Shown here: piece by piece, positions 2,667-32,533 of the stretch
Numbering within the stretch: position 1 is the first letter of the stretch
Layout: the number at the start of each line of letters is the position of its first letter
Source of the DNA: a virus
IMG/VR virus record: IMGVR_UViG_3300011013_003310
Coordinates: 1 to 33,967 of that record
Length of the DNA: 33,967 nucleotides
Strand: one strand, 5' to 3'
Position numbers and translations under genes: made by a program
Notes under the pieces: model-generated
Told to the model about the DNA's origin: nothing
Database searches by the model: none
What the model saw: the letters and a program-made list of their open reading frames with translations, nothing else

Positions 2667-2935
2667 TTGCTCTGGTTTCTAATATAGTAAATTAGAAGAG
2701 TCAAGTATAAAACATTTACTATAGAAACAAAAGCATAGGACAATTGAGTCCAGAAGAAATTAGTAGTTACAATAAAAAAATAAAAGGTCCAAAAATTCCA
2801 ACAAGAGAAAAATACAATACTCAACTTGCTAATTCCTTTTACATCTTTGTCTTTGCACAATTTAAAAAGATTTAAAATATAAAAGAAGCCAGCAATAAAT
2901 ATAAAAGAACTGTTGATTAAATCATAGGTCTCCAT
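2663..2935 (-). CDS. Small three-helix membrane protein, SemiSWEET/PQ-loop-like
   Basis: 90 residues with three hydrophobic segments at about 8-27, 38-58 and 66-86. The motif KDVKGISKLSIVFF at the start of the second helix, a Trp/Phe-rich second helix and the total length match bacterial SemiSWEETs, which dimerise into sugar uniporters. The canonical PQ dipeptide is not present (SK or LS at that place), so I call it SemiSWEET-like only. It lies between phosphomannomutase and dCMP deaminase, overlapping both neighbours by a few bases. A sugar-transport role beside a sugar-phosphate enzyme is attractive but unproven. Confidence 0.6.
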   Translation of the reverse strand: METYDLINSSFIFIAGFFYILNLFKLCKDKDVKGISKLSIVFFSCWNFWTFYFFIVTTNFFWTQLSYAFVSIVNVLYLTLLIYYIRNQSK

Positions 2936-7770: not shown

Positions 7771-8193
7771 TTATTCACCTGAGCTTCCAAACCCTCCGTC
7801 GCCCCTCTCACTTTCAGGTATATCTTCTGCATCAATAAACTCTGCATAGTGACAGGTTTCAAATATTATCTGAGCAATTCTATCGCCTTCTGATATGTCT
7901 ATGGGCTTATCCCCTAAGTTGATAAGAACAACTCCGATTTCTCCTCTGTAGCTACTATCAATCACTCCAGCCATAACGTCTAGACCTTTTTTTACTGCCA
8001 AGCCACTTCTTGGGGCGACTCTGCCATAGAAGCCAGCGGGAATAGCAAAAGCAAGCCCCGTTCTAACAACTCTTCTTTCACCTACTTTTATGTGGTGGTC
8101 TTCAATTGAAGACAAATCATAACCTGCATCAGCATAGTTAGCGGTTGTTGGTAGCTTGGCTTTTTCCGATAGTGTTTTTGTTATAATATCCAT
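7771..8193 (-). CDS. dut: Trimeric dUTPase
   Basis: 140 residues with all five dUTPase motifs: ADAGYDL (1), PRSGLAVKKG (2), GVIDSSYRGEIGVVLIN (3, with catalytic Asp and uracil-binding Tyr), GDRIAQIIF (4) and the C-terminal RGDGGFGSSGE arm (5). It hydrolyses dUTP to dUMP and diphosphate, keeping uracil out of DNA and supplying dUMP. It sits 2 bases after the HNH gene. A second, degenerate relative is at 11590-12006. Confidence 0.97.
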   Translation of the reverse strand: MDIITKTLSEKAKLPTTANYADAGYDLSSIEDHHIKVGERRVVRTGLAFAIPAGFYGRVAPRSGLAVKKGLDVMAGVIDSSYRGEIGVVLINLGDKPIDISEGDRIAQIIFETCHYAEFIDAEDIPESERGDGGFGSSGE

Positions 8194-8891: not shown

Positions 8892-9761
8892 TCAGACGAC
8901 TGCGCGGCCTTTATCTTGGAGCCAATCAAGGTCAGTTCTATCTACTGTATTGTTTCTTCTTATTGCCGCCTCTACTAAAATAGACGCACTGCTGTTTGAG
9001 TTCATTTGATGTTGAGCCGAGTTCATGTCTTTAGGAAAGCAAGTACCGCCGAAGCCACCTTTTCCATCTGGGCCGGGAACTTTAGTGTGACTTTCCCCAA
9101 CTCTCTCATCTAAAACTATAAGCTCTCTTGCAGATTCATAATTTACACCTACAGCTTCAGAAAACTTGCTCATTTCGTTGAAGAAAGAAACCTTGGTTGC
9201 AAGGAAGCAATTCCTAGCCAGCTTACAAAGTTCGGCAGTGCTAGTGTCTGAAGAATGAATCGATGGTGAATCTTTTATTTTCCCTTCCTTGTGAGAAGCT
9301 TTTAGTATCTGCTTCATTATTTGCGGGAAATTCTTATCTTTTAAATCTGAAGAACCAACTATCCAGTCTTTGTTTTCAAAAAAATCTTGCCTCCAATTTT
9401 TCTCAGTCAAAAACTCAGGCATAAAGTTTACCCCATGTTTTTTACAGAAGCCGACAGGGACAGTTGACCTAACTACAATGTATGGAGTGTCTTTAAGATC
9501 TTGAAGATCTTTGACCACTGACTCCACAATGTCGGTGTGACACTGACCATTATGTTTCATTGGAGTTGGGACGCATACAAATACAATATTGCAATGTCTC
9601 AACTGGCTGAACTCAAAACCTTGTGGGCGGCATTTGCTTGGATCTAAATCGTAAACCACTACTTCAGTTAGTGACGATTCAAGCAAGGCTGTGGCGCTGC
9701 CGACATAGCCTCCCCCTACAATCCCTATCCTTACTTTATCTATAGGCTTTAAGTACTGCAT
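8892..9761 (-). CDS. Short UDP-glucose/GDP-mannose dehydrogenase-family protein
   Basis: 289 residues against about 390-450 in the family. The N-terminal Rossmann domain (RIGIVGGGYVGSATALL, residues 11-27) and VCVPTP at 62-67 bind NAD, VRSTVPVG lies at 97-104, and the central helical domain ends with the catalytic loop GGFGGTCFPKDM (Cys241). The C-terminal UDP-binding domain is missing: the protein stops about 48 residues after the catalytic Cys. The enzyme oxidises UDP-glucose or a related NDP-sugar to the uronic acid. It could work as a shortened form, need a partner, or be decaying. The ATG follows a terminator-like hairpin by 5 bases. Confidence 0.85.
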   Translation of the reverse strand: MQYLKPIDKVRIGIVGGGYVGSATALLESSLTEVVVYDLDPSKCRPQGFEFSQLRHCNIVFVCVPTPMKHNGQCHTDIVESVVKDLQDLKDTPYIVVRSTVPVGFCKKHGVNFMPEFLTEKNWRQDFFENKDWIVGSSDLKDKNFPQIMKQILKASHKEGKIKDSPSIHSSDTSTAELCKLARNCFLATKVSFFNEMSKFSEAVGVNYESARELIVLDERVGESHTKVPGPDGKGGFGGTCFPKDMNSAQHQMNSNSSASILVEAAIRRNNTVDRTDLDWLQDKGRAVV

Positions 9762-13270: not shown

Positions 13271-13924
13271 ATGGCTAAAAAGTTCTTCATAGGTATAGGA
13301 GGGGTTGCAGGATGTGGAAAAGATACTTTCTATAGGATTTCGAAAGAAATCCTCGAAGACGAATACCCCGAACTAAACGTCCAAAGACTTTCTTTGGCTG
13401 ACCATTTAAAAGACGATCTCAAAGATTTTATTGTAGAAAAACTTGATATTGACCCGACTGAATGCACTAGAACAGAGAAAGATAAGATTAGACCTCTGCT
13501 AGTTGCTTACGCAAAGGTTAAAAGAGAAACTTCCTACGGAAGATATTGGATTGAAAAAGTAGAAGATTATATAAAAACTTTATCTACTTCAAAAAAGACT
13601 TTATTTATAATAACCGACCTTAGATTTAGTTATTATGAAAAAGATGAAACTTACTGGGTTCAAGAACAGAAAAAGGGAGTAGTTATTCATTTGAGTAGAT
13701 TTGACAATGAAATAAACAGCGAGGGCGAGAAAATTAAAAACGTAATAGGGCCAGCTAACGAAGAAGAGCGTATGCATGACCCTTTAGTTAAGGTTAGGGC
13801 TGATTATAAGTTCCAATTCCCCACTCTCAACGTAAACGACGACCAATTTCTCAATAATTTAAAACCGAAAGTTAAAAGCGCTTTAAATAAAATTAAAAAA
13901 GACCACGGACATTTTTTTAAATGA
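13271..13924 (+). CDS. P-loop deoxynucleoside monophosphate kinase-like protein
   Basis: 217 residues. A Walker A loop, GVAGCGKDT, lies at residues 11-19. It is followed by RLSLADHLKDDLKDF (substrate-side helices), a lid-like TRTEKDKIRP...YGRYW segment, and IITDLRFSYYEKDE as the central strand. This arrangement and the GKDT loop resemble the phage dNMP kinase family of T4 gp1. It would phosphorylate dNMPs in the cytoplasm for DNA synthesis. It is first in its transcript, behind a consensus promoter. Another P-loop nucleotide kinase is possible. Confidence 0.82.
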   Translation: MAKKFFIGIGGVAGCGKDTFYRISKEILEDEYPELNVQRLSLADHLKDDLKDFIVEKLDIDPTECTRTEKDKIRPLLVAYAKVKRETSYGRYWIEKVEDYIKTLSTSKKTLFIITDLRFSYYEKDETYWVQEQKKGVVIHLSRFDNEINSEGEKIKNVIGPANEEERMHDPLVKVRADYKFQFPTLNVNDDQFLNNLKPKVKSALNKIKKDHGHFFK

Positions 13925-15786: not shown

Positions 15787-18255
15787 ATGAATAAAGACTC
15801 TCAAGTAATACACGTTAAGAAGAGGAACGGAAGACTCCAAGAACTAAACATAGATAAAATAAACCATTGCGCTTCTTGGGCTTGTAATGAGCTAGAGAAT
15901 GTTTCTGCAAGCGAGGTAGTACTAGATGCCCATGTACAAATTTACGATAAAATAACCACCGATGACATAGATAAAGCTCTCATAATGAGTGCTAGGCAAA
16001 AAATTGAAAAAGAGCCTAATTATTCATATGTAGCAGCAAGACTTTTACTCTCTTCTATATGTAAAGAAGTCTTTGGTGAAAGCGTAGATAAAGATATATA
16101 TGACAACCAATACAAGCTCTCTTTTGTAAGAAACACAAAAAAACTAGTAAAGGAAGACATCCTAGACAAGAGGCTTCTTGATTTTGATCTTAAGATGCTC
16201 TCGGAACATATCGACTCTAATCGAGATTTAAACTTTAAATATCTCGGCCTACAAATATTAGCTGATCGATACCTTCACCACATAGATGGAAGAATAATGG
16301 AAACCCCTCAAGCCTTTTGGATGAGAGTATCTATGGGGTTAGCTATAAACGAAGAAAACAAAAATGAAAAAGCTATTGAGTTTTATGATACGTTGTCTCA
16401 GTTTTATCTGTGTTGCTCTACTCCTACCCTTTTTAATAGCGGTAGTACTCACAGTCAGCTTTCCAGTTGTTATCTTAATACTTTTGACGACTCAATTGAT
16501 GGAATTTTTGAAGGTCTGTGGCAAGAAGCTAGAAAGTCCAAGTTTGCTGGAGGGCTAGGTTTTGATGTCTCAAATTTCAGAGCAGCAAACTCTTATGTAA
16601 AAGGCACTAACGGTAAATCATCTGGATTAATTCCTTGGCTTAAAATATACAACGATACGCTTATTGCCGTGGATCAAGGAGGCAAAAGACCCGGAGCAGG
16701 TTGTGCTTACCTTGAGCCTTGGCATTTGGACATAGAAGATTTTCTTGATTTAAAAAAGAATACCGGAGACGAGCGCAGAAGATGTCACGATATGAATACT
16801 GCAAATTGGCTCCCAGATCTTTTCATTAGAAAAGTTCAATCAGATGAAGACTGGTACTTATTCTCTCCATCGGATACCCGTGATCTTCACGAGCTTTACG
16901 GAGACAAGTTTGATAAAAGATATAAAAAATACTGCAAACTTGCAGACAGCGGAGAACTTGAAAACCATAAAGTCATAAAAGCTAAAGATCTCTGGAAGAG
17001 AATGCTAAGAGTTCTTTTCGAAACTGGACACCCTTGGATGACTTTTAAGGATAACGCCAATTTCCGTTACTCTAACTCGCATGAAGGTGTAGTTCATAGC
17101 TCAAACCTATGCACTGAAATCTTTCTTCATACTAAACCTTCTAGATTTTTAGAAGGGGAAAAAACCGAAGTTGGCGAAACAGCAGTATGTAACCTAAGTT
17201 CTGTAAATTTAAAACAGCACATTAAAGACAACGGAGAGTTAGACTTTGATAGACTAGCTAAAACAATTGAGGTTCAAATGCGTATGCTTGACAACGTTAT
17301 TGACCTTAACTTCTACCCAACTCAAGAAGCTAAAAAATCGAACCTAAAACACAGACCAGTGGGGGCTGGAAGTATGGGTTGGGCTGATGTGTTTCACTCT
17401 TACAAGGTGAATTTCTCAAGCGACGATGCTGTGAAGTTTTCAGACGAGCTTTATGAGTTCATATCTTATCACTGCATACTTAACTCTGCCAAGCTATCTA
17501 AAGAGCGTGGAGCTTACTCCACATATGACGGGTCTCTTTGGAGCCAAGATATTCTACCAATTGACACATATAAAAGCCTCATGGATTACCTTGATCAAAA
17601 GCCGATACTCCATAGAGGTAAAAAGTTTTGTCCAGAAGTAGACTGGAAACAATTAAGAAGCCACATAAAAGATCATGGAATGCGTAATAGCAACACTATG
17701 GCAATTGCTCCAACTGCTACTATTTCATACATACAAGGATGCTCTCCCTGTATTGAGCCAGACTTCTCGGTCTTATTTGTTTATGAAAATAAAAGCGGCA
17801 ATTTAACTATTGTAAATGAATGGTTTATCAAAGAATGCAAAGAAAGAGGTATCTGGAATCAAGCGCTTATAGAAGCTATAAAATCTGTTGATGGAGATTT
17901 ATCTTTATTAAATGGAGATATCCCAGAGGACTTAAAACAAAGATACTCAACTTGCTTTGAAAGAGATCAGTTTAAGCTAATCGATTCAGCGGCGGCGAAA
18001 CAGAAGTGGATAGACATGGGTCAATCTTTGAACCTGTTCAACAAAGAAACCTCTTTAAAATACTTGAATGATTTATACATTCATGCGAGAAATAGAGGTC
18101 TAAAAAGCACATATTATCTAAGAAATTTATCTGCCAGCAAAATAGAAAAATCTACGAATACGCCAATGCAGGAAATAGAAAGCAAGCATGAGGCCATAGG
18201 AGAAATGGCTAAAGCTTGTAGTATACTAGATCCAACATGCGAAAGCTGTCAGTAA
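15787..18255 (+). CDS. nrdA: Ribonucleotide reductase class I, large subunit
   Basis: 822 residues. An ATP-cone occupies about residues 5-95 (VIHVKKRNGRLQELNIDK), so dATP feedback is likely retained. The ten-stranded barrel includes CSTPTLFNSGS and SSCYLNT (redox Cys), SNLCTEIF (Asn-x-Cys-x-Glu active site with the thiyl Cys) and AVCNLSSVNL (second redox Cys). MAIAPTATISYIQGCSP is the phosphate loop. The C terminus CESCQ is the shuttle Cys pair reduced by thioredoxin or glutaredoxin. It reduces NDPs to dNDPs in complex with the small subunit 15 bases downstream. Confidence 0.97.
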   Translation: MNKDSQVIHVKKRNGRLQELNIDKINHCASWACNELENVSASEVVLDAHVQIYDKITTDDIDKALIMSARQKIEKEPNYSYVAARLLLSSICKEVFGESVDKDIYDNQYKLSFVRNTKKLVKEDILDKRLLDFDLKMLSEHIDSNRDLNFKYLGLQILADRYLHHIDGRIMETPQAFWMRVSMGLAINEENKNEKAIEFYDTLSQFYLCCSTPTLFNSGSTHSQLSSCYLNTFDDSIDGIFEGLWQEARKSKFAGGLGFDVSNFRAANSYVKGTNGKSSGLIPWLKIYNDTLIAVDQGGKRPGAGCAYLEPWHLDIEDFLDLKKNTGDERRRCHDMNTANWLPDLFIRKVQSDEDWYLFSPSDTRDLHELYGDKFDKRYKKYCKLADSGELENHKVIKAKDLWKRMLRVLFETGHPWMTFKDNANFRYSNSHEGVVHSSNLCTEIFLHTKPSRFLEGEKTEVGETAVCNLSSVNLKQHIKDNGELDFDRLAKTIEVQMRMLDNVIDLNFYPTQEAKKSNLKHRPVGAGSMGWADVFHSYKVNFSSDDAVKFSDELYEFISYHCILNSAKLSKERGAYSTYDGSLWSQDILPIDTYKSLMDYLDQKPILHRGKKFCPEVDWKQLRSHIKDHGMRNSNTMAIAPTATISYIQGCSPCIEPDFSVLFVYENKSGNLTIVNEWFIKECKERGIWNQALIEAIKSVDGDLSLLNGDIPEDLKQRYSTCFERDQFKLIDSAAAKQKWIDMGQSLNLFNKETSLKYLNDLYIHARNRGLKSTYYLRNLSASKIEKSTNTPMQEIESKHEAIGEMAKACSILDPTCESCQ

Positions 18256-18270
18256 TACAAAGGATGGAAA

Positions 18271-19281
18271 ATGAGTAAAACAGGATTATTATTAGATGAA
18301 AACACGACGGGAGTTAATCAGATTCTCCCACATAAACACAAATTTGCTTGGGATCTTTTTCAAAAAGGCGTAGCAAATAATTGGTCGCCATCCGAAATTA
18401 ATATGTCGGATGATGTAAAACAATGGAAAGGAGACGATCTCTCTAAAGATGAAAAGCTACTCGTTAAAAGATGTCTTGGTTTTTTTGCTGGAAGTGAGTC
18501 CTTGGTTGGTAATAATTTATTACTTAATGTCGCAAAATGGATAACAGACGCTGAGTGTGGCCAGTACATAATGAGGCAAGCATACGAAGAGTCCCTACAC
18601 AACTGGACAGTCGTAACTTGCTGCGATAGCTACTCTTTAAAAATATCTGAGGTTTACGAAGCCTATGTCAACATACCTTCAATTAAGGCGAAGGATGATT
18701 TCCTAATGAGCATAACCTCTGACATCAACAGACAAGATTTCAGTACTAAGACTTTAGAGGGAAAAAGAGAGTTTCTGAGAAATTTGATTACCTATTATAT
18801 CGTTTGTGAGGGAACCTTTTTCTTTAGTGGATTCGCTATGCTTCTAGCCCTTGGCAGACAAAATAAACTGCCCGGACTTTCTGATCAAATTAGATATACT
18901 CTTAGAGACGAGAGCTTGCATATCCAATTTGGTACGTATTTAATAAATACGATTAAAGAACAGTATCCATCGGTGTGGACAAAAAAGTTCGAGGAAGAAA
19001 CCACTGAGCATATTAAAAAAGCCGTAGAGCTTGAAATTCAATATGCCCACGATGTTCTTCCACGAGGAATTCTTGGCTTAAACGCTGAGATGTTTGTTGA
19101 TTACATGCGATATATCGGCAACAGACGGCTTGAAGGAATTGGAATTGAGTTTTCTTTTGAGAACGCTCAGAACCCTTTCCCTTGGCTGTCAGAAGTAGTT
19201 GATACCGCAGCTATGACAAACTTCTTTGAGCGCAAGGTTAAAGATTATCAGAACTCTGGAGTTTTAGAGGATGATTTTTAG
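18271..19281 (+). CDS. nrdB: Ribonucleotide reductase class I, small (radical) subunit, class Ic-like
   Basis: 336 residues. Metal ligands are Glu76 (GSESLV), Glu107 and His110 (ESLH), Glu180 (CEGTFFF), Glu214 and His217 (RDESLH). Spacing equals that of the Chlamydia enzyme (31, 73, 34). The residue four after the first His ligand, tyrosine in standard R2 and Phe in Chlamydia, is Val114 (codon 18610-18612), and ligand 1 is Glu instead of Asp. Both point to a tyrosine-free, probably Mn/Fe class Ic cofactor. Trp38 and Asp213 of the radical-transfer path are kept. An AAAGGATGG Shine-Dalgarno precedes the ATG. Confidence 0.95.
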   Translation: MSKTGLLLDENTTGVNQILPHKHKFAWDLFQKGVANNWSPSEINMSDDVKQWKGDDLSKDEKLLVKRCLGFFAGSESLVGNNLLLNVAKWITDAECGQYIMRQAYEESLHNWTVVTCCDSYSLKISEVYEAYVNIPSIKAKDDFLMSITSDINRQDFSTKTLEGKREFLRNLITYYIVCEGTFFFSGFAMLLALGRQNKLPGLSDQIRYTLRDESLHIQFGTYLINTIKEQYPSVWTKKFEEETTEHIKKAVELEIQYAHDVLPRGILGLNAEMFVDYMRYIGNRRLEGIGIEFSFENAQNPFPWLSEVVDTAAMTNFFERKVKDYQNSGVLEDDF

Positions 19282-19467
19282 GAGAATCCCTAAGAATACA
19301 ATATTTAAAACAATAGAGAACCAAAGAAAGGCGGTAAGCAAAAACTTACCGTCTATTTTTTTCTTTATTTTAAAATATTCCGATTTTGAAATGACTTTTC
19401 TTTCAGCCATCTCAGACCCAGAAACATCCCAGCAATCACCATCCTTGCATATTAGCCATTTTTTCAT
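19264..19467 (-). CDS. Small C-terminally anchored membrane protein, 67 aa
   Basis: The N-terminal 40 residues are soluble and charged (MKKWLICKDGDCWDVSGSEM), with one hydrophobic helix at about 43-66 (LLTAFLWFSIVLNIVFLGILL). It overlaps the end of nrdB tail to tail by 18 bases. No family is recognised. It starts 2 bases after the stop of the next gene upstream. Confidence 0.6.
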   Translation of the reverse strand: MKKWLICKDGDCWDVSGSEMAERKVISKSEYFKIKKKIDGKFLLTAFLWFSIVLNIVFLGILLKIIL

Positions 19468-19681: not shown

Positions 19682-19687
19682 TTACAC
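19682..19687 (-). promoter_or_regulatory. GTGTAA element, 8 bases before the start at 19673
   Basis: Minus strand GATAGTGTAAATAAATAC then ATG. The element overlaps the stop codon of the signal peptidase gene, so the downstream pair of genes could be expressed separately from it. Confidence 0.48.
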
Positions 19688-20172
19688 TATCGCTGATTAA
19701 CCAACATTGCGATTATGTGCTTCTCTTTGATAATGCCGTACCAAGTATGATTCCTGTTATCGCCAATAATGTAATACTCGTTATACTTTAACTTTATTTC
19801 CTTTGTATCTAAGTAATAAATACTATCTCTTGTAAGCATTATTCTTTCTTTATTTTTTTCTTCTAGTTTTCTTCCGTCTACATAAATAAATCCATTTTTT
19901 ATCATTATTCTTTCATTTGGAAGGCCAACCACCCTTTTTATTAAGTGATCTGAATTGTTATTAGGGTCATCGGTTACGATTACATCTCCCCTATCAGGCG
20001 AAACTATTTTGCAATAAATACTATTAACAAAAACCTTAGTTCCATCCTTTAAAGTCGGATTCATACTATCCCCATCTACCTCATAAAACTCAAAACCAGA
20101 GAAGAAAACAGCCCAAAAAAGCAGCAAAGCCCCCAATAGTCTTACTTTTTTATTTAATGTAAAAATACGCAT
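19687..20172 (-). CDS. lepB: Signal peptidase I-like protein
   Basis: 161 residues. An N-terminal hydrophobic helix at about 12-27 anchors it in the inner membrane. Family boxes: GDSMNPTL with nucleophile Ser36, HLIKRVVGLPNE with general-base Lys79, and YIIGDNRNHTW near the C terminus (usual GDNRxxSxDSR; the second half is altered). It would cleave signal peptides of secreted proteins. Possible clients in this window are the protease at 5981-6949 and other exported phage proteins; the lipoproteins would use signal peptidase II. The ATG is exactly 8 bases after a GTGTAA element. Confidence 0.88.
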   Translation of the reverse strand: MRIFTLNKKVRLLGALLLFWAVFFSGFEFYEVDGDSMNPTLKDGTKVFVNSIYCKIVSPDRGDVIVTDDPNNNSDHLIKRVVGLPNERIMIKNGFIYVDGRKLEEKNKERIMLTRDSIYYLDTKEIKLKYNEYYIIGDNRNHTWYGIIKEKHIIAMLVNQR

Positions 20173-21235: not shown

Positions 21236-21997
21236 ATGACAGAGGAAAAAAATTATCAAATATCTTGCTTCACCTCTGTATTTAAGGGGGCTAAATGGAT
21301 TGAAGCATTTTTCGAAGACATCCTAAAGCAGTCGATTTTTGACGATGTAGAATTTGTAATTATAAACGCCAATTCCCCAGAAAAAGAACAAGAGGAAGAG
21401 GTAATATTAGACTACGAAAAAAAATATAAAAACATCAAATATATGACCCTCGAAAAAGATCCGGGGGTTTATGCTGTTTGGAACATAGGCATAGAGATGT
21501 CCCAAGGAGATTTTTTATCTAATTGGAATCTTGACGACAAAAGACACCCAGAGCACATAGAAGAGCACGTAAAATGCCTTAAATCCAACCCAGAGATTGA
21601 TTTAGCCTACGCACATGTGCTGATGACCTGCACGGAAAAAGATACTTTCGAATTTAATAATGCAGTAGCTGAATACAGAATGCCTGAGTTCTCATACGAA
21701 AACCTTCTAAAATACAATATGCCGCATAACTGCCCAGTATGGAGAAGAAGGCTTCATGACAACTATGGCCACTTCAAGACCGATATGGTTTCAGCAGCAG
21801 ACTTTGATCTTTGGCTAAGAGCAGCCTCCCAAGGAAGCTCGTTTAAAGGGATTGACCGAACTCTAGGTTTATACTATAAAAACCCAGAGGGAGTTTCCAC
21901 TAGAAAAGAAACACTTTCTGAGGCAGTTCAAGAAGTTAATGACCTGAGAGTTAAATACTCCGAAATGGCAGATTATAGAAATTTTATAATTAAATGA
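21236..21997 (+). CDS. Family 2 glycosyltransferase (GT-A fold)
   Basis: 253 residues. The GT2 pattern is clear: ISCFTSVFKGAKWIEAFFED at the N terminus, VEFVIINANSPEKE (nucleotide-binding strand), GVYAVWNIGIEMSQGDFLSNW, and the metal-binding NLDD at 98-101 in place of DxD. The acceptor helix region SAADFDLWLRAASQG resembles the catalytic-base region. It is the first gene of the glycan operon and overlaps the next by 4 bases. Donor and acceptor cannot be told from sequence. Confidence 0.88.
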   Translation: MTEEKNYQISCFTSVFKGAKWIEAFFEDILKQSIFDDVEFVIINANSPEKEQEEEVILDYEKKYKNIKYMTLEKDPGVYAVWNIGIEMSQGDFLSNWNLDDKRHPEHIEEHVKCLKSNPEIDLAYAHVLMTCTEKDTFEFNNAVAEYRMPEFSYENLLKYNMPHNCPVWRRRLHDNYGHFKTDMVSAADFDLWLRAASQGSSFKGIDRTLGLYYKNPEGVSTRKETLSEAVQEVNDLRVKYSEMADYRNFIIK

Positions 21998-22827
21998 TAC
22001 TTCCAGTATGCACAGTAGTAACGGAAAATTGCTATAAAGAATTTCTTCTGTTCAAGCACTCCATAGAGCTATTTCATGATTGCGAGTGGTATATTTCTTG
22101 CGATGAATTCGTAAAAAACTCGATAGAAGAATCTGAAAAAGTACACGCGCACTTACTTATAGAAAACGATGATTGTGATCATGTTGTTAATGATGAAAAA
22201 CAAAATGAGAACTTTACGAAATTAATATTAACCAAGTTTTCTATATGCTCCGAGGGAATGAAGCATCACCCATTTGTCTTATTGATAGACAATGACATGA
22301 TCTTTACCAATCCAATAGATGAAAACATATTAGAACTATTAGCAAACAAGAAGGTTGACGCTTGCGTATGCCCACATATGACGGACGGTTTTGGGGATGA
22401 GAAAGTAACCGGATACTTCAACTGCGGCATGGCTTTCATAAGTAATCAAGAGCTCATAAGACACTGGATGACCCTAACATCAAACCACAAGTCTTTGGGT
22501 TTGTATTATGAACAAAAACCTTTAGAGTTAGTTCTAAAATCTTTCTTGACATTAAATCTGCCAATGAATTACAACATTGGTTGGTGGAGATTCCTTACTG
22601 AGAGGACAAAGAAGAGAATTGAACTGTTGAATGTGCAAGACCAAAAATTGTTTTTTGGCCCGTTACCAGCAGTAAATTTTCATTTCCACACACTTAAAGA
22701 GTTAAAGTACCCAAACTTTGGGGAGGGCTTGCAGCAAATAGTTTTTGAGCACATGGAACAATCCTTTAACATGGAATACAGATCCATTTTAGAAAAAATG
22801 GAAGAATTAAAAAATGAAAATACATAG
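21994..22827 (+). CDS. Nucleotide-diphospho-sugar transferase-like protein
   Basis: 277 residues. HPFVLLIDNDMIFTNPI contains a DxD motif (Asp99-Asn-Asp101) on a hydrophobic strand, and TGYFNCGMAFI follows, both typical of GT-A families such as GT8/GT77-like transferases. The C-terminal part (AVNFHFHTLKELKYP) supplies His residues that often complete the metal site. No signal or membrane segment, so it acts in the cytoplasm. The end overlaps the next start by 14 bases. Confidence 0.75.
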   Translation: MILPVCTVVTENCYKEFLLFKHSIELFHDCEWYISCDEFVKNSIEESEKVHAHLLIENDDCDHVVNDEKQNENFTKLILTKFSICSEGMKHHPFVLLIDNDMIFTNPIDENILELLANKKVDACVCPHMTDGFGDEKVTGYFNCGMAFISNQELIRHWMTLTSNHKSLGLYYEQKPLELVLKSFLTLNLPMNYNIGWWRFLTERTKKRIELLNVQDQKLFFGPLPAVNFHFHTLKELKYPNFGEGLQQIVFEHMEQSFNMEYRSILEKMEELKNENT

Positions 22828-23605
22828 AGCGAAGACTTCATGGCAGGATTCCCTGCAAGAGCTAATTACAATGTGGGAAGAAAGTGGGCTTTGCGAATCA
22901 GTGCAGTCTAACGAAAGATGCACTTGGGCGAATGAATTAGGAGATGTCCTTCTTTACGAGCACGACAGGCTAACAAATTTACCAGTTGATTGGGAGCTAG
23001 GCCTTTTTGCTAATGAGGTTTATTCAGGGCCAAAATCAACGCCTTGGATATATTGGCCAAGGCATCCCAGAAAATTAGAGGCGTGTATCAATGAAGGTAT
23101 ATGGAATTACGACCAAAGAGATATATCCTCCATTTTCTTGGGTAAAGTAGAAAACCCAATTCAACACCAAAAAAGAACCAAAAAAGACTGGTCTGATTCC
23201 ATAGAGGTTTTCTCAATGCCAATAGAGCTCGGTATTTCTGGAAACCACAGATTATCTAATGAGGAATATTTGAGGCAAATTAGAAGAGCTAAGTTCGGGC
23301 TTTGTCTTTCTGGCCACGGCCCCAAATGTCAAAGAGAGATAGAGCTAATGGGACTAGGCACAGTACCTATTTTCACAGAAGGAGTAGACAATACTTACTT
23401 TGAGCCGCTACGAGAAAATTACCATTACTTTTACGCTGAATATCCAGAGCAAGTAGAAGACATAGTAAATAGCTGCTCCAAAGATCAATGGAGAGAAATG
23501 TCTGCTAATTGTGTAGACTGGTATTTTAGAAATTGCTCAAGAGAGGGCTCATTTGAATCTACTCAATACATAATTAATCATTTTAAAAATCACCCAAACG
23601 AATGA
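22814..23605 (+). CDS. Exostosin-like glycosyltransferase
   Basis: 263 residues. The segment EEYLRQIRRAKFGLCLSGHG followed by CQREIELMGLGTVPIFTEG (about 150-190) matches the conserved C-terminal pattern of exostosin/GT47-type GT-B enzymes (R-x-x-F-x-L-C-x-x-G ... R-x-x-E-x-x-x-x-G-x-x-P). The N-terminal part is Trp-rich. GT10-like enzymes share some of this layout and are an alternative. It overlaps the next gene by 4 bases. Confidence 0.68.
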   Translation: MKIHRAKTSWQDSLQELITMWEESGLCESVQSNERCTWANELGDVLLYEHDRLTNLPVDWELGLFANEVYSGPKSTPWIYWPRHPRKLEACINEGIWNYDQRDISSIFLGKVENPIQHQKRTKKDWSDSIEVFSMPIELGISGNHRLSNEEYLRQIRRAKFGLCLSGHGPKCQREIELMGLGTVPIFTEGVDNTYFEPLRENYHYFYAEYPEQVEDIVNSCSKDQWREMSANCVDWYFRNCSREGSFESTQYIINHFKNHPNE

Positions 23606-24534
23606 GTGAAAATATAAAATCTTACTTTGGGGAAAGGCCAGTGTACAGCGACCCTTATGGTCATGAATTAATTTCTTCTTGGGTAAAAGAGGGCAAAAGC
23701 TTTTCCTTTGGCCGTATAGGAATGTCTGAGATGATGCTTTTAGACGTATTTCTCCAGAACACCGAAAACCCAAACTTTAGTCAATGTAGACTTCATCCTA
23801 ACATACCTGTAAGTACTCAGTCTCGATACATGGGAGGCCTTTACCCGACAGAGTACAATATATTAAAAGATTTCTGTAATTATTACCTCTCAACGTTAAG
23901 TGAAGTAGATATGTTCGGCACTTGGACAAAATCTACACCCACGGGAGCCAATCTAGCAGAGGATAAGCTTTGCATAGATTACGTTAATAAAGATGCGATC
24001 ATTACCGAAATGTCTCCGTATGCAGCTTATCATTTTGACAATCCTTGGACTTTAGGCTTGGAAGGTAAAACTTTACTAATTGCTCATCCATTCCAGCAAT
24101 CAATTGAGAACCAAAAAGACAAACTTAATTTAGTTTGGTCCAATAAAAAACTTTTCCCCGATAATGTAAAAGTAAAATCCCTTAAAGTTCCCCTATATGA
24201 CTACCTCATAGAGCCAGAGTTTCCTGATTGGTTCTCCTCTCTTGAAGACATGAAAAAAAGAATGGAGTCAATTGATTTTGATGTACTTCTTGTTGGCGCT
24301 GGTTTTTGGGGAGTACCGCTTTCTGCTCATGCTAAAAAAATTGGAAAAGCAGGGATACATGCAGCAGGAGCAACTCAGTTATTTCCCGGCATAAGAGGGA
24401 GAAGATGGGATGAGAACGGTGAGATGGATGAGTATATGAATGAGCACTGGGTAAGACCCTTACCTGAAGAGACTCCAGATCCTAAGTTCGAAGACCATAA
24501 ACAATTTTTCCACGAAGGTGGATGCTATTGGTAA
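23602..24534 (+). CDS. GT-D-like putative glycosyltransferase
   Basis: 310 residues. The N-terminal FSFGRIGMSEMMLLDVFL resembles the opening R-x-G-D-x-E motif of GT-D (DUF1792) transferases, with Ser-Glu here. The C-terminal FDVLLVGAGFWGVPLSAHAK, then GIHAAGATQLFPGIRGRRW, is the conserved GAG...GxxxIxxGAxxQxxFG-type end of that group. The assignment is by eye and may be wrong. The C terminus HEGGCYW is unusual. It ends one base before the next start. Confidence 0.55.
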   Translation: MSENIKSYFGERPVYSDPYGHELISSWVKEGKSFSFGRIGMSEMMLLDVFLQNTENPNFSQCRLHPNIPVSTQSRYMGGLYPTEYNILKDFCNYYLSTLSEVDMFGTWTKSTPTGANLAEDKLCIDYVNKDAIITEMSPYAAYHFDNPWTLGLEGKTLLIAHPFQQSIENQKDKLNLVWSNKKLFPDNVKVKSLKVPLYDYLIEPEFPDWFSSLEDMKKRMESIDFDVLLVGAGFWGVPLSAHAKKIGKAGIHAAGATQLFPGIRGRRWDENGEMDEYMNEHWVRPLPEETPDPKFEDHKQFFHEGGCYW

Positions 24535-24535
24535 A

Positions 24536-25297
24536 ATGAAAAAAATATTCCTAGTAATCGCTAATTATAAAGACCACAAGCAAGAGTTCTTTGAAAATAA
24601 GATATCTCCGCTAAACGAAAAATATTGCGAGAAGCATGGCTTTGAATACATGTTCATCAAAGACACCCCTCCTCTTTTTAGGGAGAACCCAACTTGGTGG
24701 AAGTTTACTATCCTTCAAGAAATGATAAAAAACGGCGAATTAAAAGACGGGGATGTCTTTACTCACTTAGATGCAGATATGGTTATAGTTAAAAGTGACC
24801 AATCTTACGAAACTGAAAAGTCTTTTTCTTACTCTGTCGATAACGGCAACACTCACTGCATGGGTAACTATACAATCACAATAAATGATTGGTCTAAAAA
24901 CTTAGTGGAGAATATTCTCAGTGAAGATCTTTGGCAAAAAATGCGTAATGATGACCACTGGGAAAACTTCAGGGAGCAAGCTGCTTGGTACACACTTGCA
25001 GGAATACTGCCTCATAGCTGGAAACCATTTAAGGATATGCCTAACTACGGCTTTCATTCTAAAGTCACTAAAAATTTAGAATACTCAATAGACGAACTAA
25101 ACGAGCATGTAGAAGTCAGAGGCCCAGAATGGGATTGCACACTACTCGCTGAAGAAGCTAATGATGCAGTCAGTAGTATGCTTCAAAAATACAACATTAA
25201 CCGAAGCTTAAAAAAAGACACAATCATTAGACACTTTGCTGGCAATCAGCCTTGGAACGAAGAATACGTGAAAATGTCTGACCTGTACGAAGGATGA
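24536..25297 (+). CDS. GT34-like glycosyltransferase (GT-A)
   Basis: 253 residues from the ATG at 24536, one base after the previous stop; an in-frame ATG 18 bases earlier is less likely. IFLVIANYKDHKQEFF, then NPTWWKFTILQEM and the metal motif HLDADMVIV (Asp79-Ala-Asp81), fit the galactosyl/mannosyl transferase GMA12-MNN10-like pattern. The C-terminal TIIRHFAGNQPWNEEY carries the HFAGN box. Predicted cytoplasmic. It overlaps the next gene by 4 bases. Confidence 0.75.
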   Translation: MKKIFLVIANYKDHKQEFFENKISPLNEKYCEKHGFEYMFIKDTPPLFRENPTWWKFTILQEMIKNGELKDGDVFTHLDADMVIVKSDQSYETEKSFSYSVDNGNTHCMGNYTITINDWSKNLVENILSEDLWQKMRNDDHWENFREQAAWYTLAGILPHSWKPFKDMPNYGFHSKVTKNLEYSIDELNEHVEVRGPEWDCTLLAEEANDAVSSMLQKYNINRSLKKDTIIRHFAGNQPWNEEYVKMSDLYEG

Positions 25298-26250
25298 GAG
25301 TCTTATTTGTCCCAACAATAGATCCGAAAAGCCAAGGAGACCTTTTGGAGGTTTCCATATTGCACGGCCTAAGAGAAGTGCTTGGTGAAAATTGCGTTGA
25401 TTTCCCCAGAAAAAAAGTAATGTACCATGATTGGTCTTCTACTAAAAAAGAGGATCTTCACGGTAGGGGGTTTACTTTGTATAAAAAACCCATAAAGGAT
25501 CTTTCAAAAAAACAAAGAGAGCTTAAAGACTTTGACTATGTTATTTACGGGGTTTCAAACGCTTACGATCAGCAAGAAATTAAAGAGGTCAACGATTTAG
25601 TCTCCGAAGAAAATATCTGGCACTTAGATGGGCATGACTTATACGGTCACGCGCCACGCATGATAAATTTTCAAGGCGAAAATATAATAGGGGTTCAAAA
25701 AAACAACTCCTTTAAAAGAGAGCTTGTAGAAAACGTAAAAAATGTACACCCCACTGGATTTGGTATTCCTGAATATCAAATAAGAAAAATAGACTTCTCA
25801 AAAAAGACTCAACTTTATCAAAAAACTGCACCTGACAGCGCCTTGTTCAAAGAGGTACAAGACCTTGGGGGAGGAAGAGCTCATCACATTTTTACTGATG
25901 AAGACGACTATTATGAAGATCTTTCTAAGTCATGGATAGGATTAACATGCAAAAAAGGAGGATGGGACTGTCTGAGGCATTATGAAATAATTGCCGCTGG
26001 AACTTTACTACTATTTAAAGATTATGACCTAAAGCCTCAATTCTGCTCTCCTGCATTTATGCCGTGTTTGTCTTACTCAACGAAAGAAGAGCTAGATATT
26101 ATAACTAAACAGCTAGTAGTAGATAATCAGCCCTCCTCACTTTATTTATCTCTCATAGACCAGCAAAGGAAGTGGTTACTTAATAACGCCACTACCAAGT
26201 CTCGCGCCAATAACATCTTAAACATATTGCAAAGAGAATGGAAAAAATAA
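25294..26250 (+). CDS. Putative glycosyltransferase, GT-B-like
   Basis: 318 residues. It begins MRVLFVPTIDPKSQGDLLEV, as in GT-B N-terminal domains. Near the C terminus, SWIGLTCKKGGWDCLRHYEI and IAAGTLLLFKDYDL resemble the donor-site segment of CgeB-like and GT4-like proteins (R-x-x-E-x-x-A-x-G). The middle is not conserved with anything I recognise. Function is inferred mainly from this segment and the operon. It overlaps the next gene by 13 bases. Confidence 0.6.
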   Translation: MRVLFVPTIDPKSQGDLLEVSILHGLREVLGENCVDFPRKKVMYHDWSSTKKEDLHGRGFTLYKKPIKDLSKKQRELKDFDYVIYGVSNAYDQQEIKEVNDLVSEENIWHLDGHDLYGHAPRMINFQGENIIGVQKNNSFKRELVENVKNVHPTGFGIPEYQIRKIDFSKKTQLYQKTAPDSALFKEVQDLGGGRAHHIFTDEDDYYEDLSKSWIGLTCKKGGWDCLRHYEIIAAGTLLLFKDYDLKPQFCSPAFMPCLSYSTKEELDIITKQLVVDNQPSSLYLSLIDQQRKWLLNNATTKSRANNILNILQREWKK

Positions 26251-26993
26251 CCGAAATAACGATTTCACTACATTGCGGTTGTGATCAAAAAGTAGTCGAT
26301 AACCAAATGAAAATTTTGTCTCAGTTAGAAGACAAATATAAAGTTTATTGGAATAACAGGATAGATAGATTCCCCCATGCATACCCTAGCTATTCTGAAA
26401 TGTTGAATGAAGCAATCGCAACTTCTCCAACAGAATTTGTTATTGTGGTGAACGACAGGGTATTACCAACCGTACATCAAGCTCAAAAAATTATTACTCT
26501 TCTTGAAAATGGTTTCGCTTGCGCCATGCAGTGGAATGTTGGTTTCATGGGCCTATCAAAAGAATTAGTCAGAAAAATAGGATGGTGGGATCAAAGATAC
26601 ACAAACGGCGGATGGGAAGACAGAGATTGGGTTTTTCGAATGGTGTTAGAAGATTTAGCATTTTACGAAAGCCAAGAAAGTGATTATGATTTTAGTTGGA
26701 AGTCTCCATTGCAAGTTATGGATGGATGTGATGCATCTGAACCGCACTTTGTAAAAAAATGGAAGCTTATGAAGGACGAAGTTTGTAGGGTTGTCTCAGA
26801 AGAACAGTACTCAAAATGGGATGAGATGATAGGCGAACCAAGACCGGACATCTCTGAAAGCTGGAAATCTAACGAGTTCTCCGTATTAGGAATTAATGAC
26901 CAAGGTCAACGAGCAAGAGGATACGAAAAGCCAAATTCTGGGCCAGCTAATACAGCTTTCCTCTTCAACAGAAAGGTTGTTGATAAATGTTAA
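26238..26993 (+). CDS. Family 2-like glycosyltransferase
   Basis: 251 residues. EITISLHCGCDQKVVDNQMK leads into a GT-A fold. VIVVNDRV at 69-75 is the metal-binding strand (Asn-Asp in place of DxD), and NGGWEDRDWVFRM is the GT2 ED motif near the acceptor. The N terminus is short compared with the usual family. The first codons overlap the previous gene, and the last 7 bases overlap the start of the dehydratase-like gene. Confidence 0.78.
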   Translation: MEKITEITISLHCGCDQKVVDNQMKILSQLEDKYKVYWNNRIDRFPHAYPSYSEMLNEAIATSPTEFVIVVNDRVLPTVHQAQKIITLLENGFACAMQWNVGFMGLSKELVRKIGWWDQRYTNGGWEDRDWVFRMVLEDLAFYESQESDYDFSWKSPLQVMDGCDASEPHFVKKWKLMKDEVCRVVSEEQYSKWDEMIGEPRPDISESWKSNEFSVLGINDQGQRARGYEKPNSGPANTAFLFNRKVVDKC

Positions 26994-27997
26994 ATAAAAA
27001 AGTAATGATTATAGGGGGCAGTGGTTCTTTAGGAATGTCCCTTATCAAGAGGCTGGCCACTGATAATGAGCTATTTATCCTGTCTAGAGATGAATCTAAG
27101 CACTGGGCTTTAAAAAATAAATTTAAAGATATGAATCTTAAGTTGCAAGTGTGCGACATAAGAGATAAGGATAGGTTAAGTAAAACAATCTGTAGGGTTA
27201 ACCCAAACATTGTAATTATAGCAGCGGCGTTAAAGCATGTAGACGTATGCGAATTAAGCCCCGAAGAAAGCATAGCTACAAATCTGCAAGGTGTCTCTAA
27301 TGTGGTCTCCTCAGTAGAAGAGAATCTTACCGCATTGACTGATCTAGAAACTGTATTAATGGTTAGTACAGATAAAGCTTGCAGCCCAATTAATGTGTAT
27401 GGAATGTGTAAGTCTATATCCGAAAGGATAGTCTTAGAAAAATCTAGGCATATAGAGAATGTAAAATTTGTAGCCACAAGATATGGAAATGTCCTAGAAA
27501 CGAGAGGAAGCATAGTACCTCTTTTTATGCATCAAGCTAAAAATAATGAATTCATAACGGTCACTAGAGAAGACATGACTAGGTTTGTTATGACTTTAGA
27601 AGATAGCGTAGACCTAATTATTAATTGCATAAAAACCTCTAATACTGGCGAGACATATATACCTAAGCTGAAATCAATGAAGATTATAGATTTAGCTAAA
27701 ATCTTTGCTCAAAAATATAATAAAGAAATTAAAATATGCGGAATTAGATCTGGCGAAAAAATACATGAAGACTTGATAAATGAAACAGAGTCGCTAAGAA
27801 CGGTTGATGAAGGTGAAGTTTTTGTTGTTAAGCCAATTTACGAAACTAAAGTATACAATAGCGAAGTCTTTACATACGATAGCTCCGACACCTTGAACAT
27901 TGAGGAGCTAGAAGAGTACCTAACCAGTATCAATTTGTTCTCTAAAGACCCAGACGATTTTGCTCAAACAGTCAAACTAGACGATATGAGATCATGA
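26987..27997 (+). CDS. UDP-N-acetylhexosamine 4,6-dehydratase-like SDR (CapD/PseB family)
   Basis: 336 residues. Rossmann start VMIIGGSGSLGMSLIKRLA, then AAALKHVDVCELSPEE and the catalytic segment STDKACSPINVYGMCK (Thr/Asp/Lys with Tyr-x-x-x-Lys), RYGNVLETRGSIVPLF and the late GEKIHEDLI are all PseB/FlaA1-type. The family removes water from UDP-GlcNAc to form a 4-keto-6-deoxy sugar, sometimes with C5 inversion. A C4 aminotransferase would normally follow but is not visible in the window. It overlaps the formyltransferase-like gene by 4 bases. Confidence 0.88.
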   Translation: MLNKKVMIIGGSGSLGMSLIKRLATDNELFILSRDESKHWALKNKFKDMNLKLQVCDIRDKDRLSKTICRVNPNIVIIAAALKHVDVCELSPEESIATNLQGVSNVVSSVEENLTALTDLETVLMVSTDKACSPINVYGMCKSISERIVLEKSRHIENVKFVATRYGNVLETRGSIVPLFMHQAKNNEFITVTREDMTRFVMTLEDSVDLIINCIKTSNTGETYIPKLKSMKIIDLAKIFAQKYNKEIKICGIRSGEKIHEDLINETESLRTVDEGEVFVVKPIYETKVYNSEVFTYDSSDTLNIEELEEYLTSINLFSKDPDDFAQTVKLDDMRS

Positions 27998-28632
27998 ACG
28001 TATTATTTTGCGGCTATAGAGACTGGTCTAAAAATATATACAACGCCTTAAAGCAAAGCGAAGATATATCTTTTTGCGGTAGTTCTGAGGAGCTCTCTGA
28101 CATGGCTCCTTCTGATTTTGATTTAGTATTTTTTGTTGGGTGGAGTGAAATAATTGGCGCTGACTGGATAAATACAACTGAATGCATATGCTTGCATCCA
28201 TCTATGCTCCCTGAATACAGAGGAGGAAGCCCAATACAAAATCAGATTATTGAGGGCGAAAAATGGTCTGGAGTAACATTATTTAAAATGAACGAAGAGC
28301 TTGATAGTGGGGATATAATCGATCAAGCGCCGTTTAGTCTAGATGGAGATTTAATAGATATTTTTTCTAGAATAGAAACCTTGGGGGTAGCCTTAATCAA
28401 AAAGACTCTCACTTGCGGCGAGATTAAATATTCCCCTCAAGATCATTCAAAAGCGTCTTTTTTTAAAAGAAGAACTCCAAAGATGAGTGAAATTAAGGTG
28501 GATGATTTTAAGAACTTTACAGCAGAAGAATTACATAATAAGATAAGGTCTTTACAAGACCCGTACCCGAACGCTTTTATAAGTTGTAAACATAGCACAA
28601 AGCTTTTCTTGCAAAAAAGCAGGATAAAATAA
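27994..28632 (+). CDS. Formyltransferase-family protein (sugar N-formyltransferase-like)
   Basis: 212 residues. LHPSMLPEYRGGSPIQNQII at 67-86 and LDSGDII at 103-109 are the formyltransferase core. His68 and Asp104 match the catalytic pair of ArnA/Fmt with the same 36-residue spacing. The catalytic Asn two residues before the His is Cys66 here. The Fmt C-terminal tRNA-binding domain is missing, so an amino-sugar substrate fits better than Met-tRNA. It would use N10-formyl-tetrahydrofolate to formylate an amino sugar. It is next to a PIG-L deacetylase that could expose the amine. Confidence 0.82.
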   Translation: MNVLFCGYRDWSKNIYNALKQSEDISFCGSSEELSDMAPSDFDLVFFVGWSEIIGADWINTTECICLHPSMLPEYRGGSPIQNQIIEGEKWSGVTLFKMNEELDSGDIIDQAPFSLDGDLIDIFSRIETLGVALIKKTLTCGEIKYSPQDHSKASFFKRRTPKMSEIKVDDFKNFTAEELHNKIRSLQDPYPNAFISCKHSTKLFLQKSRIK

Positions 28633-28634
28633 TA

Positions 28635-29258
28635 ATGCAAAATAAACTTATTATATCGCCTCATGTTGACGACGAGGTTTTAGGTTGCGGTGGGGTATTG
28701 GACTCTACTTTTTCTATTTTGCACTTGGGCCTATCAGAGTCTCAAAATCACGGCAATTCAGTACTGACAAAGCAAGAAAGACTACTGGAGTTTCAGAAAG
28801 TCATAAGTCACCTATCGATAAAGTGGCACAAGCTCCTTGATCACCCTGTTAATAACTACAAGCAGCAAGACTTGATAGGAGATTTAGAAAAAACTATTAA
28901 TGAGCTAAAGCCTTCTGAAATTTATATTCCTCATCCTTCATACAATCAAGATCATAGAGCATGTTATGAAGCCTGTTTAATTGCCCTGAGACCTCACGAT
29001 ATAAATCATTTTACCCCAAAGGTTTTAATTTACGAACAACCACAAGTCTACCTATGGAATAATAACTATAGAGAATTCAAGCCAAACTACTTTAAACAAA
29101 TAGACATAGATAAAAAAATACTTCTATACTCAATGCTAGAATCTCAAGTTAGAGAATTTAGATCTCCAGAATGTATAAAATCTATGGCTAAAGTGAGAGG
29201 TAGTCAAATTAGAGCAGAATATGCCGAAGCTTTTGAAATCTTAAGAATTGTTGATTAA
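28635..29258 (+). CDS. PIG-L/LmbE family N-deacetylase
   Basis: 207 residues. ISPHVDDEVLGCGG at 7-20 provides the zinc ligands His10 and Asp13 and the base Asp12; IYIPHPSYNQDHRA provides the second His pair. The family removes N-acetyl groups from GlcNAc-type sugars. The 6-base reach to the formyltransferase-like gene suggests deacetylation followed by formylation of one sugar. The stop overlaps the next ATG (TAATG). Confidence 0.88.
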   Translation: MQNKLIISPHVDDEVLGCGGVLDSTFSILHLGLSESQNHGNSVLTKQERLLEFQKVISHLSIKWHKLLDHPVNNYKQQDLIGDLEKTINELKPSEIYIPHPSYNQDHRACYEACLIALRPHDINHFTPKVLIYEQPQVYLWNNNYREFKPNYFKQIDIDKKILLYSMLESQVREFRSPECIKSMAKVRGSQIRAEYAEAFEILRIVD

Positions 29259-30052
29259 TGAAATATTTTGTTTTTGGATCGAACGGGATGATGGGAAAGC
29301 ATTTTTGCTCCTTGGCAAAAGATGCAGTTGAGCTAACTAGAGAAGACTATAATATTCTTTCCAATAATGAAAAACTATTGCTCAACATGCTTGAGAAAGA
29401 AAAAGGCATAAGCAGTGAAGACGTAATCTTGAATTTTGCAGGAGCTATTAAACAAAGAAATTTCTCTTTGAAAGATTATGTTTTAATTAACTCGCTGTTC
29501 CCCCATCAACTAGAAGCAGCAGCCAAGAAAATAGGATGCAAGTTTATCCACCTTACCACTGATTGTGTTTACGACGGATTAAAAGGCTCTTATGTGGAAA
29601 CTGATGACCATAACTGCACAGATTGGTACGGAAAAAGTAAATCTCTAGGAGAGCCAGAGAACAGTTGCTGCATAAGAACTTCTATAATTGGTTTAGGTAG
29701 CAAAGATAATGTTTCGCTTCTCGATTGGTTTATTAACGAAGAAAAAGATAACCTATTTGGCTTCACCAACCATTTATGGAACGGAGTTACCTGCACTGAG
29801 CTTTCAGAGCTAATAATTAAATTAATTGATGAAGGTATTTTGTGGCAAGGAACAAGGCACGTATTTTCTAACCCTGTCTCAAAGTACGAATTACTGAGAC
29901 ATGTAAATGATGTTTTTAGCTTAAGAAAAAACTTACAAGAAAAAATATCTGAAGATACCTGCGATAGAACCCTATCGTCCATCCACGAACAGTCTTTCAC
30001 TGTCAAAAGTATAGAAGAACAGATAGAAGACCTCAAAAGTTCTTGCCTTTAA
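29258..30052 (+). CDS. RmlD-like NAD(P)-dependent sugar reductase (SDR)
   Basis: 264 residues. The Rossmann motif is YFVFGSNGMMGKHF. LTTDCVYDGLKGSYVETD and WYGKSKSLGE give the Thr and Tyr-x-x-x-Lys catalytic residues, and CCIRTSIIG follows as in dTDP-4-dehydrorhamnose reductases. It could reduce the 4-keto sugar made by the dehydratase at 26987-27997. The C terminus (SFTVKSIEEQIEDLK) also matches the family. The exact nucleotide sugar is unknown. Confidence 0.82.
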   Translation: MKYFVFGSNGMMGKHFCSLAKDAVELTREDYNILSNNEKLLLNMLEKEKGISSEDVILNFAGAIKQRNFSLKDYVLINSLFPHQLEAAAKKIGCKFIHLTTDCVYDGLKGSYVETDDHNCTDWYGKSKSLGEPENSCCIRTSIIGLGSKDNVSLLDWFINEEKDNLFGFTNHLWNGVTCTELSELIIKLIDEGILWQGTRHVFSNPVSKYELLRHVNDVFSLRKNLQEKISEDTCDRTLSSIHEQSFTVKSIEEQIEDLKSSCL

Positions 30053-30083
30053 TTTTTTAAAAATATAGAATCAGAGATTAAAA

Positions 30084-30773
30084 ATGAAAATTGACTCAAT
30101 AGACGTAGGGGAAAAAGCCAGAGAGAAATACCCAGAATGTTTTGGAGAAAATCCAAAATCTTTTAATGACGGACACCTTGGAGGGACAAACACATCTGGA
30201 GATCCATCTACATTTATCCACCCAAATGTATGGGGCCACCTTGTAAATAATTTTGGAGTCAAAAGTATTCTTGATATTGGTTGCGGGTTTGGCTTTGCGA
30301 TAAAGTTCATCAAAGATAACTTTGAAGGCGTAGACGTAGATGGCGTAGAGGGTAGCCCAAAAGTCGTGGACTTATGCTTATTTCCAGATAATATAACTCA
30401 ACATGACTACACAACGGGAGCATTTGTCCCAGATAAGACTTACGATTTAGGTTGGAGCACTGAATTTGTAGAGCATGTAGAAGAAAAGTACGCTTATAAT
30501 TTTATTGAGACCTTTAAAAAATGTAAGTACGTAGCCTTTACATTCGCTTCTATTGGGCAAGGAGGTCATCACCATGTAAATGAAAATACTCAAGAGTATT
30601 GGGTTGATAAAATGAGTGAATCAAATTTTGAGTTCTTAGAAAAAGAGACCCTTGAACTAAGAGATCTGGCCGTTAAAGATATGGAGCAATGCAGGGGGGC
30701 TTTTCCCGAACAATTCTTCATATTTCACTTTCAAGACAGGGGCATTCTGTTCAAAAATAATTCTCTTTCTTAA
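30084..30773 (+). CDS. SAM-dependent methyltransferase, class I
   Basis: 229 residues. SILDIGCGFGFAIKFI (about 56-71) is motif I, VDGVEGSPKVVDLCL is motif II with the acidic ribose-binding residue, and YDLGWSTEFVEHVEEKYA is the motif IV/post-motif region. The acceptor is unknown; sugar O-methylation or capping of the glycan fits the operon. It is the only gene here with a real gap upstream (31 bases). Its last base overlaps the next start (TAATG). Confidence 0.85.
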   Translation: MKIDSIDVGEKAREKYPECFGENPKSFNDGHLGGTNTSGDPSTFIHPNVWGHLVNNFGVKSILDIGCGFGFAIKFIKDNFEGVDVDGVEGSPKVVDLCLFPDNITQHDYTTGAFVPDKTYDLGWSTEFVEHVEEKYAYNFIETFKKCKYVAFTFASIGQGGHHHVNENTQEYWVDKMSESNFEFLEKETLELRDLAVKDMEQCRGAFPEQFFIFHFQDRGILFKNNSLS

Positions 30774-31858: not shown

Positions 31859-31862
31859 TTAA

Positions 31863-32531: not shown

Positions 32532-32533
32532 AA

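Follow-up and report, generated by a model that had tools for sequence, protein, structure and literature searches.

The gene pair at positions 15787–19281 of the window (the whole stretch analysed, 33,967 bases of IMG/VR virus record IMGVR_UViG_3300011013_003310, from an uncultivated virus infecting bacteria) probably encodes a class I ribonucleotide reductase (RNR) of class Ic type, with an oxidant held by the metal site, by homology Mn(IV)/Fe(III). We put the probability of this reading at about 0.72. Its parts are not equally firm: a radical at the usual tyrosine site is almost certainly absent, a metal-centred oxidant is very likely, and a Mn/Fe centre specifically is probable by analogy with the enzyme of Chlamydia trachomatis. 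The initial annotation had called the R2 gene class Ic-like. This assignment is upheld by the pairing of a Glu ligand with a non-Tyr radical site, by the sequence and fold match to C. trachomatis and by the phylogenetic tree; two arguments offered with it, the ligand spacing and the novelty of the valine, do not carry it.

The R2 protein and its R1 partner

The features of the gene pair are reported in table 1. The R2 (beta) subunit matches Pfam family PF00268 (E=1.5e-76) and scores 434.8 bits with the NCBIfam model NF005550, above its cut-off of 309. Its HMMER alignment with the R2c protein of C. trachomatis (1syy; E=5.9e-107, 361 bits) is ungapped across the ligand and radical-site region, so V114 corresponds to F127, E76 to E89, E107 to E120, E180 to E193 and E214 to E227 of that enzyme. 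The residue numbers and codon position first given for a valine at the place of the radical tyrosine, and for a glutamate as metal ligand 1, are thus as claimed, and the positions of the other ligands (E107, H110, E180, E214 and H217) agree as well. The electron-transfer residue D213 is present beside W38, Y209 and Y326, the last of which we take to be the C-terminal inter-subunit radical-transfer residue of class I RNRs. Throughout the clade of related viral R2 proteins described below, W38, Y209 and Y326 are invariant except in one truncated record.

Table 1. Coordinates of the RNR genes, of selected R2 codons and of the adjacent terminator candidate (Ct, C. trachomatis).
Feature	Position	Strand	Description	Basis
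NrdA-type R1 (alpha) subunit	15787–18255	+	822 aa, one ATP-cone	profile and alignment
NrdB-type R2 (beta) subunit, class Ic-like	18271–19281	+	336 aa, intact ORF	translation and profile matches
R2 codon 38	18382–18384	+	Trp, electron-relay residue (Ct W51, E. coli W48)	alignment; Ct role from PMC4118035
R2 codon 76	18496–18498	+	Glu, metal ligand 1 (Ct E89; Asp in Tyr-radical enzymes)	alignment
R2 codon 107	18589–18591	+	Glu, metal ligand (Ct E120)	alignment
R2 codon 110	18598–18600	+	His, metal ligand (Ct H123)	alignment
R2 codon 112	18604–18606	+	Trp; W112/T116 marks one phage sub-clade (other L112/Y116; Ct H125/Y129)	
R2 codon 114	18610–18612	+	GTC, Val; site of the radical Tyr (E. coli Y122, Ct F127)	alignment
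R2 codon 180	18808–18810	+	Glu, metal ligand (Ct E193)	alignment
R2 codon 209	18895–18897	+	Tyr, activation-relay residue (Ct Y222)	alignment; Ct role from PMC4118035
R2 codon 214	18910–18912	+	Glu, metal ligand (Ct E227)	alignment
R2 codon 217	18919–18921	+	His, metal ligand (Ct H230)	alignment
R2 codon 223	18937–18939	+	Tyr in the clade, Asp outside it	residue comparison
R2 codon 326	19246–19248	+	Tyr (Ct Y338, E. coli Y356)	alignment
Terminator-like hairpin followed by a T-run	19329–19354	+	3′ of the R2 gene	consensus scan only

Structure prediction, proposed at the outset as a check, gave an R2 model with a mean pLDDT of 78. Its top fold match is the Mn/Fe NrdB of C. trachomatis, and the structures of this protein (1syy, 4d8g and 4m1i) are the best PDB matches by both sequence and fold. 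A helix break before E76, at G74, was considered as a clade-specific opening of the metal site resembling that of class Id. The idea was dropped because the control model, a Phe-type R2 from another viral contig (L172), shows the same break.

The R1 (alpha) subunit passes the NCBIfam model NF005544 (1048, cut-off 965), and is nearest to the Pseudomonas aeruginosa-type R1 5im3. It carries the active-site residues N440, C442 and E444, the disulfide pair C228/C468, the tyrosines Y776 and Y777 and a C-terminal CxxC motif (818–821). Of the 116 clade loci whose upstream sequence covers 3.8 kb or more, 99 have an R1 gene there, in the same orientation as R2. Neither NrdI nor a glutaredoxin partner was found in any of 15 related contigs, which may be fragments. 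A gene for a peptidase of family S26 (signal peptidase; 19687–20172, − strand) is located downstream of R2, and such a gene is found close to R2 at 25 of 109 clade loci.

Conservation and phylogenetic position of the viral R2 clade

Short peptide patterns identified 359 relatives of the R2 protein among viral contigs. The clade considered here consists of 132 distinct proteins with at least about 68 per cent identity to the query, gathered by two query scans and a third scan from a cellular relative; 131 are from viral contigs and one is from a contig labelled Woesebacteria (L082/L255). The latter, Candidatus Woesebacteria MAG contig NZCP01000046.1, encodes a clade-type R2 with 71 per cent identity and Ile at the radical site. 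This contig is in all likelihood viral and joined the MAG through binning, and it is not counted as cellular evidence.

Residue 76 is Glu in all 132 proteins; residue 114 is Val in 106 of them and Ile in the remaining 26, and is never Tyr. At least 14 exchanges between Val and Ile can be placed on the clade tree, none of them to Tyr or Phe, so either aliphatic residue is tolerated at this position and aromatic ones are not. The codons GTC, GTT, GTG and GTA all occur for Val114 among the sampled relatives. The dN/dS ratio of R2 against close relatives is about 0.02–0.04 (pairs with measurable, unsaturated dS and enough differences), indicating strong purifying selection. A sequencing or assembly error at codon 114 of a normal Tyr-radical enzyme, named in the initial annotation as a refuting case, found no support: such an error is refuted by the Val or Ile of 132 distinct proteins from independent contigs, by the varied Val codons and by a ligand 1 that is Glu where a Tyr-radical enzyme has Asp. 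Val114 is real and conserved, neither chance nor artefact.

The clade is divided into two phage sub-clades, characterized by W112/T116 and L112/Y116; the tree needs just one change to separate them. The clade-fixed residues Y223, T210, F185, N111 and V115, are absent from the 50 other R2 proteins (R2c or class Ia) that were compared; at position 223, Tyr is found in 132 of 132 clade members against Asp in all 50 outside proteins.

The relation between ligand 1 and the radical site was analysed in 197 distinct R2 proteins in which both positions are readable, including phage, gammaproteobacterial, Patescibacteria and plasmid-borne haloarchaeal sequences among others. Glu is combined with Val, Ile or Phe in 143 of these and Asp with Tyr in 54, without exception. 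The ligand spacings (31, 73 and 34), put forward earlier as a class Ic trait, are indeed those of C. trachomatis; however, 26 of 36 Asp/Tyr proteins have them too, and they therefore carry no weight for class Ic.

In the maximum-likelihood tree, the phage clade joins the R2c proteins of C. trachomatis, haloarchaea and Patescibacteria. A second tree, built without the most divergent sequences and without the diagnostic columns 76, 112, 114 and 116, recovers this group with support of 99/95, set off from the Asp/Tyr proteins; the phage clade itself has support of 100/100. In the two trees the clade sits on a long branch of 1.7–1.8 changes per site. The R2 phylogeny suggested in the initial annotation thus places the protein with C. 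trachomatis R2c and outside the Asp/Tyr group.

The Phe-type R2 proteins of Saccharopolyspora erythraea (6y2n), Phyllobacterium and one phage (L172) sit among the Asp/Tyr enzymes in the trees. The Glu/non-Tyr state has therefore changed more than once, and R2c taken as a whole is not a single clade. The phage protein of this set, from viral contig IMGVR_UViG_3300017645_000005, is a canonical Glu/Phe R2c close to those of Phyllobacterium and S. erythraea; judged from its sequence, it is a separate viral acquisition of an R2 of predicted class Ic type.

Nature of the oxidant

The R2c protein of C. trachomatis holds its oxidizing equivalent as Mn(IV)/Fe(III) (PMC8463856, PMC11883743). By homology, the phage R2 would bind a dinuclear metal site through E76, E107, H110, E180, E214 and H217. 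With Val at residue 114, the usual site offers no tyrosine on which a radical could be kept; the oxidized metal cluster itself would most likely serve as the one-electron oxidant, presumably as Mn(IV)/Fe(III) arising from Mn(II)/Fe(II) and O2. In C. trachomatis, W51 and Y222 pass on the extra electron while the cofactor is activated (PMC4118035), and Y209 and W38 would relay it in the phage enzyme. During turnover, the oxidizing equivalent would travel from Y326 of R2 through Y777/Y776 of R1 to C442, which would start nucleotide reduction. The metals, their oxidation states, the activity and the radical path are in each case those predicted from homologous enzymes, and the resistance to reactive oxygen ascribed to the cofactor in the initial annotation would likewise be expected by homology. 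The identity of the metals cannot be read from the sequence: an N-terminal Glu ligand is shared by di-iron proteins and is not enough on its own to set the metal specificity (PMC4118035).

The features of class Ic that are present comprise the lack of a radical Tyr (V114), Glu as ligand 1 (partnered by Val or Ile, not Phe), placement with R2c and the residues W38, Y209 and Y326. Classes Ia and Ib combine a radical Tyr with an Asp ligand, where the phage protein has V114 and E76, and the NrdF model TIGR04171 gives 79.5 bits against a cut-off of 355. In class Ie, whose site is metal-free, Tyr carries a DOPA radical and three Glu ligands have been exchanged (VPK/QSK type); the phage R2 retains four Glu and two His and lacks the Tyr.

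The Ic-like scaffold might nevertheless carry a different metal oxidant, either a superoxide-activated dimanganese centre as in class Id or a di-iron centre acting directly. In class Id, too, ligand 1 is Glu and the oxidant is metal-based (PMC8463856), a recent preprint on viral RNRs (PMC12918982) leaves room for other metals, and some second-sphere residues are fixed in this clade alone. However, class Id enzymes keep the Tyr, which is V114 here, and a Lys four residues past the Glu, where the clade has Gly (G80) or Ala, and their R1 has no ATP-cone (PMC8463856), whereas the phage R1 has one. The class Id structure 6cwo matches at 54 bits, compared with 361 bits for C. trachomatis. The Tyr, the Lys and the ATP-cone all speak against class Id, and we regard a different metal on this scaffold as unlikely. 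A protein radical on another residue specific to the clade would fit the fixation of Y223, the first candidate, and of W112 in one sub-clade. Helix periodicity argues against both, since residue 223 is turned by about 240 degrees from H217 and residue 112 by about 200 degrees from H110, so that both side chains face away from the metal site; for W112, moreover, the other sub-clade has Leu. We consider such a radical quite improbable.

Loss of the radical Tyr is also seen in helper R2 proteins and in R2lox, and could mean that the phage R2 is not catalytic, whether as an inactive or auxiliary subunit or as an oxidase resembling R2lox. This seems very improbable: the six ligands, Tyr326 and an intact upstream R1 gene are all retained, the R1 gene is found at most clade loci, and dN/dS is low. 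In each of five large related contigs there is a single R2 match, which argues against an inactive helper of a second R2. The R2lox models give only 37–67 bits against cut-offs of 194–346. R2lox proteins are marked by a Tyr–Val cross-link and have neither a C-terminal Tyr nor an R1 partner, a pattern from which both Y326 and the adjacent R1 depart. There is, finally, a small but appreciable chance that the phage clade represents a new cofactor variant of class I, in which the aliphatic radical site and the fixed second-sphere residues (Y223, T210, N111, V115 and W112/T116 or L112/Y116) would jointly sustain a metal oxidant or protein radical unlike the Mn(IV)/Fe(III) centre of Chlamydia. The reading as a class Ic-type enzyme with a Mn(IV)/Fe(III) centre is the one we retain below.

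Known relatives, viral lineage and significance

A close, characterized counterpart is the R2c of C. trachomatis (1syy, 4d8f and 4m1i). The phage R2 shares with it about 50 per cent identity over 324 residues, six ligands with Glu as the first, the same spacing, the absence of the radical Tyr and the equivalents of W51, Y222 and Y338. It differs in having V114 for Phe127, T116 for Tyr129 and W112 for His125, in the clade-fixed Y223, T210, F185 and N111 and in its long branch. The haloarchaeal and Patescibacteria R2c proteins (L264, L268 and L256–L258), grouped with C. trachomatis and the phage clade, also combine the Glu ligand with the lack of Tyr, but have Phe at the radical site. The three Patescibacteria proteins (L256, L257 and L258) have, despite their Glu/Phe pairing, Phe at the position of the activation-relay residue Y222 as well. 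The NrdBz-type class Ia proteins of proteobacteria and some phages belong to the same NF005550 neighbourhood, with 43–49 per cent identity and mostly the same spacing, but in all 54 distinct sequences ligand 1 is Asp and the radical site is occupied by Tyr.

A bioRxiv preprint of February 2026 (PMC12918982) describes a virioplankton clade of viral RNRs nearest to NrdAz, whose beta subunit has Ile or Val in place of Tyr; it is named 'subclass Ic-like' and kept separate from Ic. According to the same preprint, the abundance of Ic-like phages falls as iron rises; it detected no link of their abundance to any single metal and leaves the cofactor undecided. Viral contigs, an R1 nearest NrdAz and an R2 with Ile or Val instead of Tyr are also what we observe, and the group holding the phage R2 appears, as matched by description, to be the one already reported there. 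Val114 does differ from the Phe of Chlamydia, as the initial annotation pointed out, but it is not unprecedented: besides the Ile/Val of PMC12918982, Leu, Ile and Val in R2c had been noted by Hogbom 2010, cited in PMC3824934. The placement of the beta subunit, the strict Glu/Asp pairing and the two sub-clades are absent from the accessible text of PMC12918982; they and the clade-fixed residues such as Y223 are new here.

The window shows no near-identity match among isolated phages, and its terminase matches theirs at only about 24–27 per cent identity. The Gp23 capsid family, searched for as a sign of T4-like origin, gave no match in the 15 related contigs, in a search run without a positive control. 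Around the RNR genes there is a nucleotide-metabolism set that includes a sigma-70-type factor, a dCMP deaminase and a dUTPase (1396–2244, 2241–2666 and 7771–8193, − strand) and a dNMP kinase-like protein (13271–13924, + strand). The window also carries a phage-borne phosphomannomutase of the eukaryotic PMM family (2922–3635, − strand; PF03332, 98 bits) and a UDP-glucose dehydrogenase-like gene of 289 aa (8892–9761, − strand), which begins within the NAD-binding domain profile (from position 73 on) and stops after the central domain. A long sugar-modification cluster (21236–33821, + strand) encodes glycosyltransferases, a Polysacc_synt_2 epimerase, a formyltransferase, a PIG-L deacetylase, an RmlD-like protein, methyltransferases, a SIS domain protein and a transaldolase.

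If the class Ic-type reading is correct, a large uncultivated phage lineage builds its DNA precursors with an enzyme that is free of a tyrosyl radical and needs one iron per site. This would be an advantage where iron is scarce, or where reductants or oxidants attack tyrosyl radicals. The clade would also provide a natural test set for what is required of the radical-site residue when the metal carries the oxidizing equivalent.
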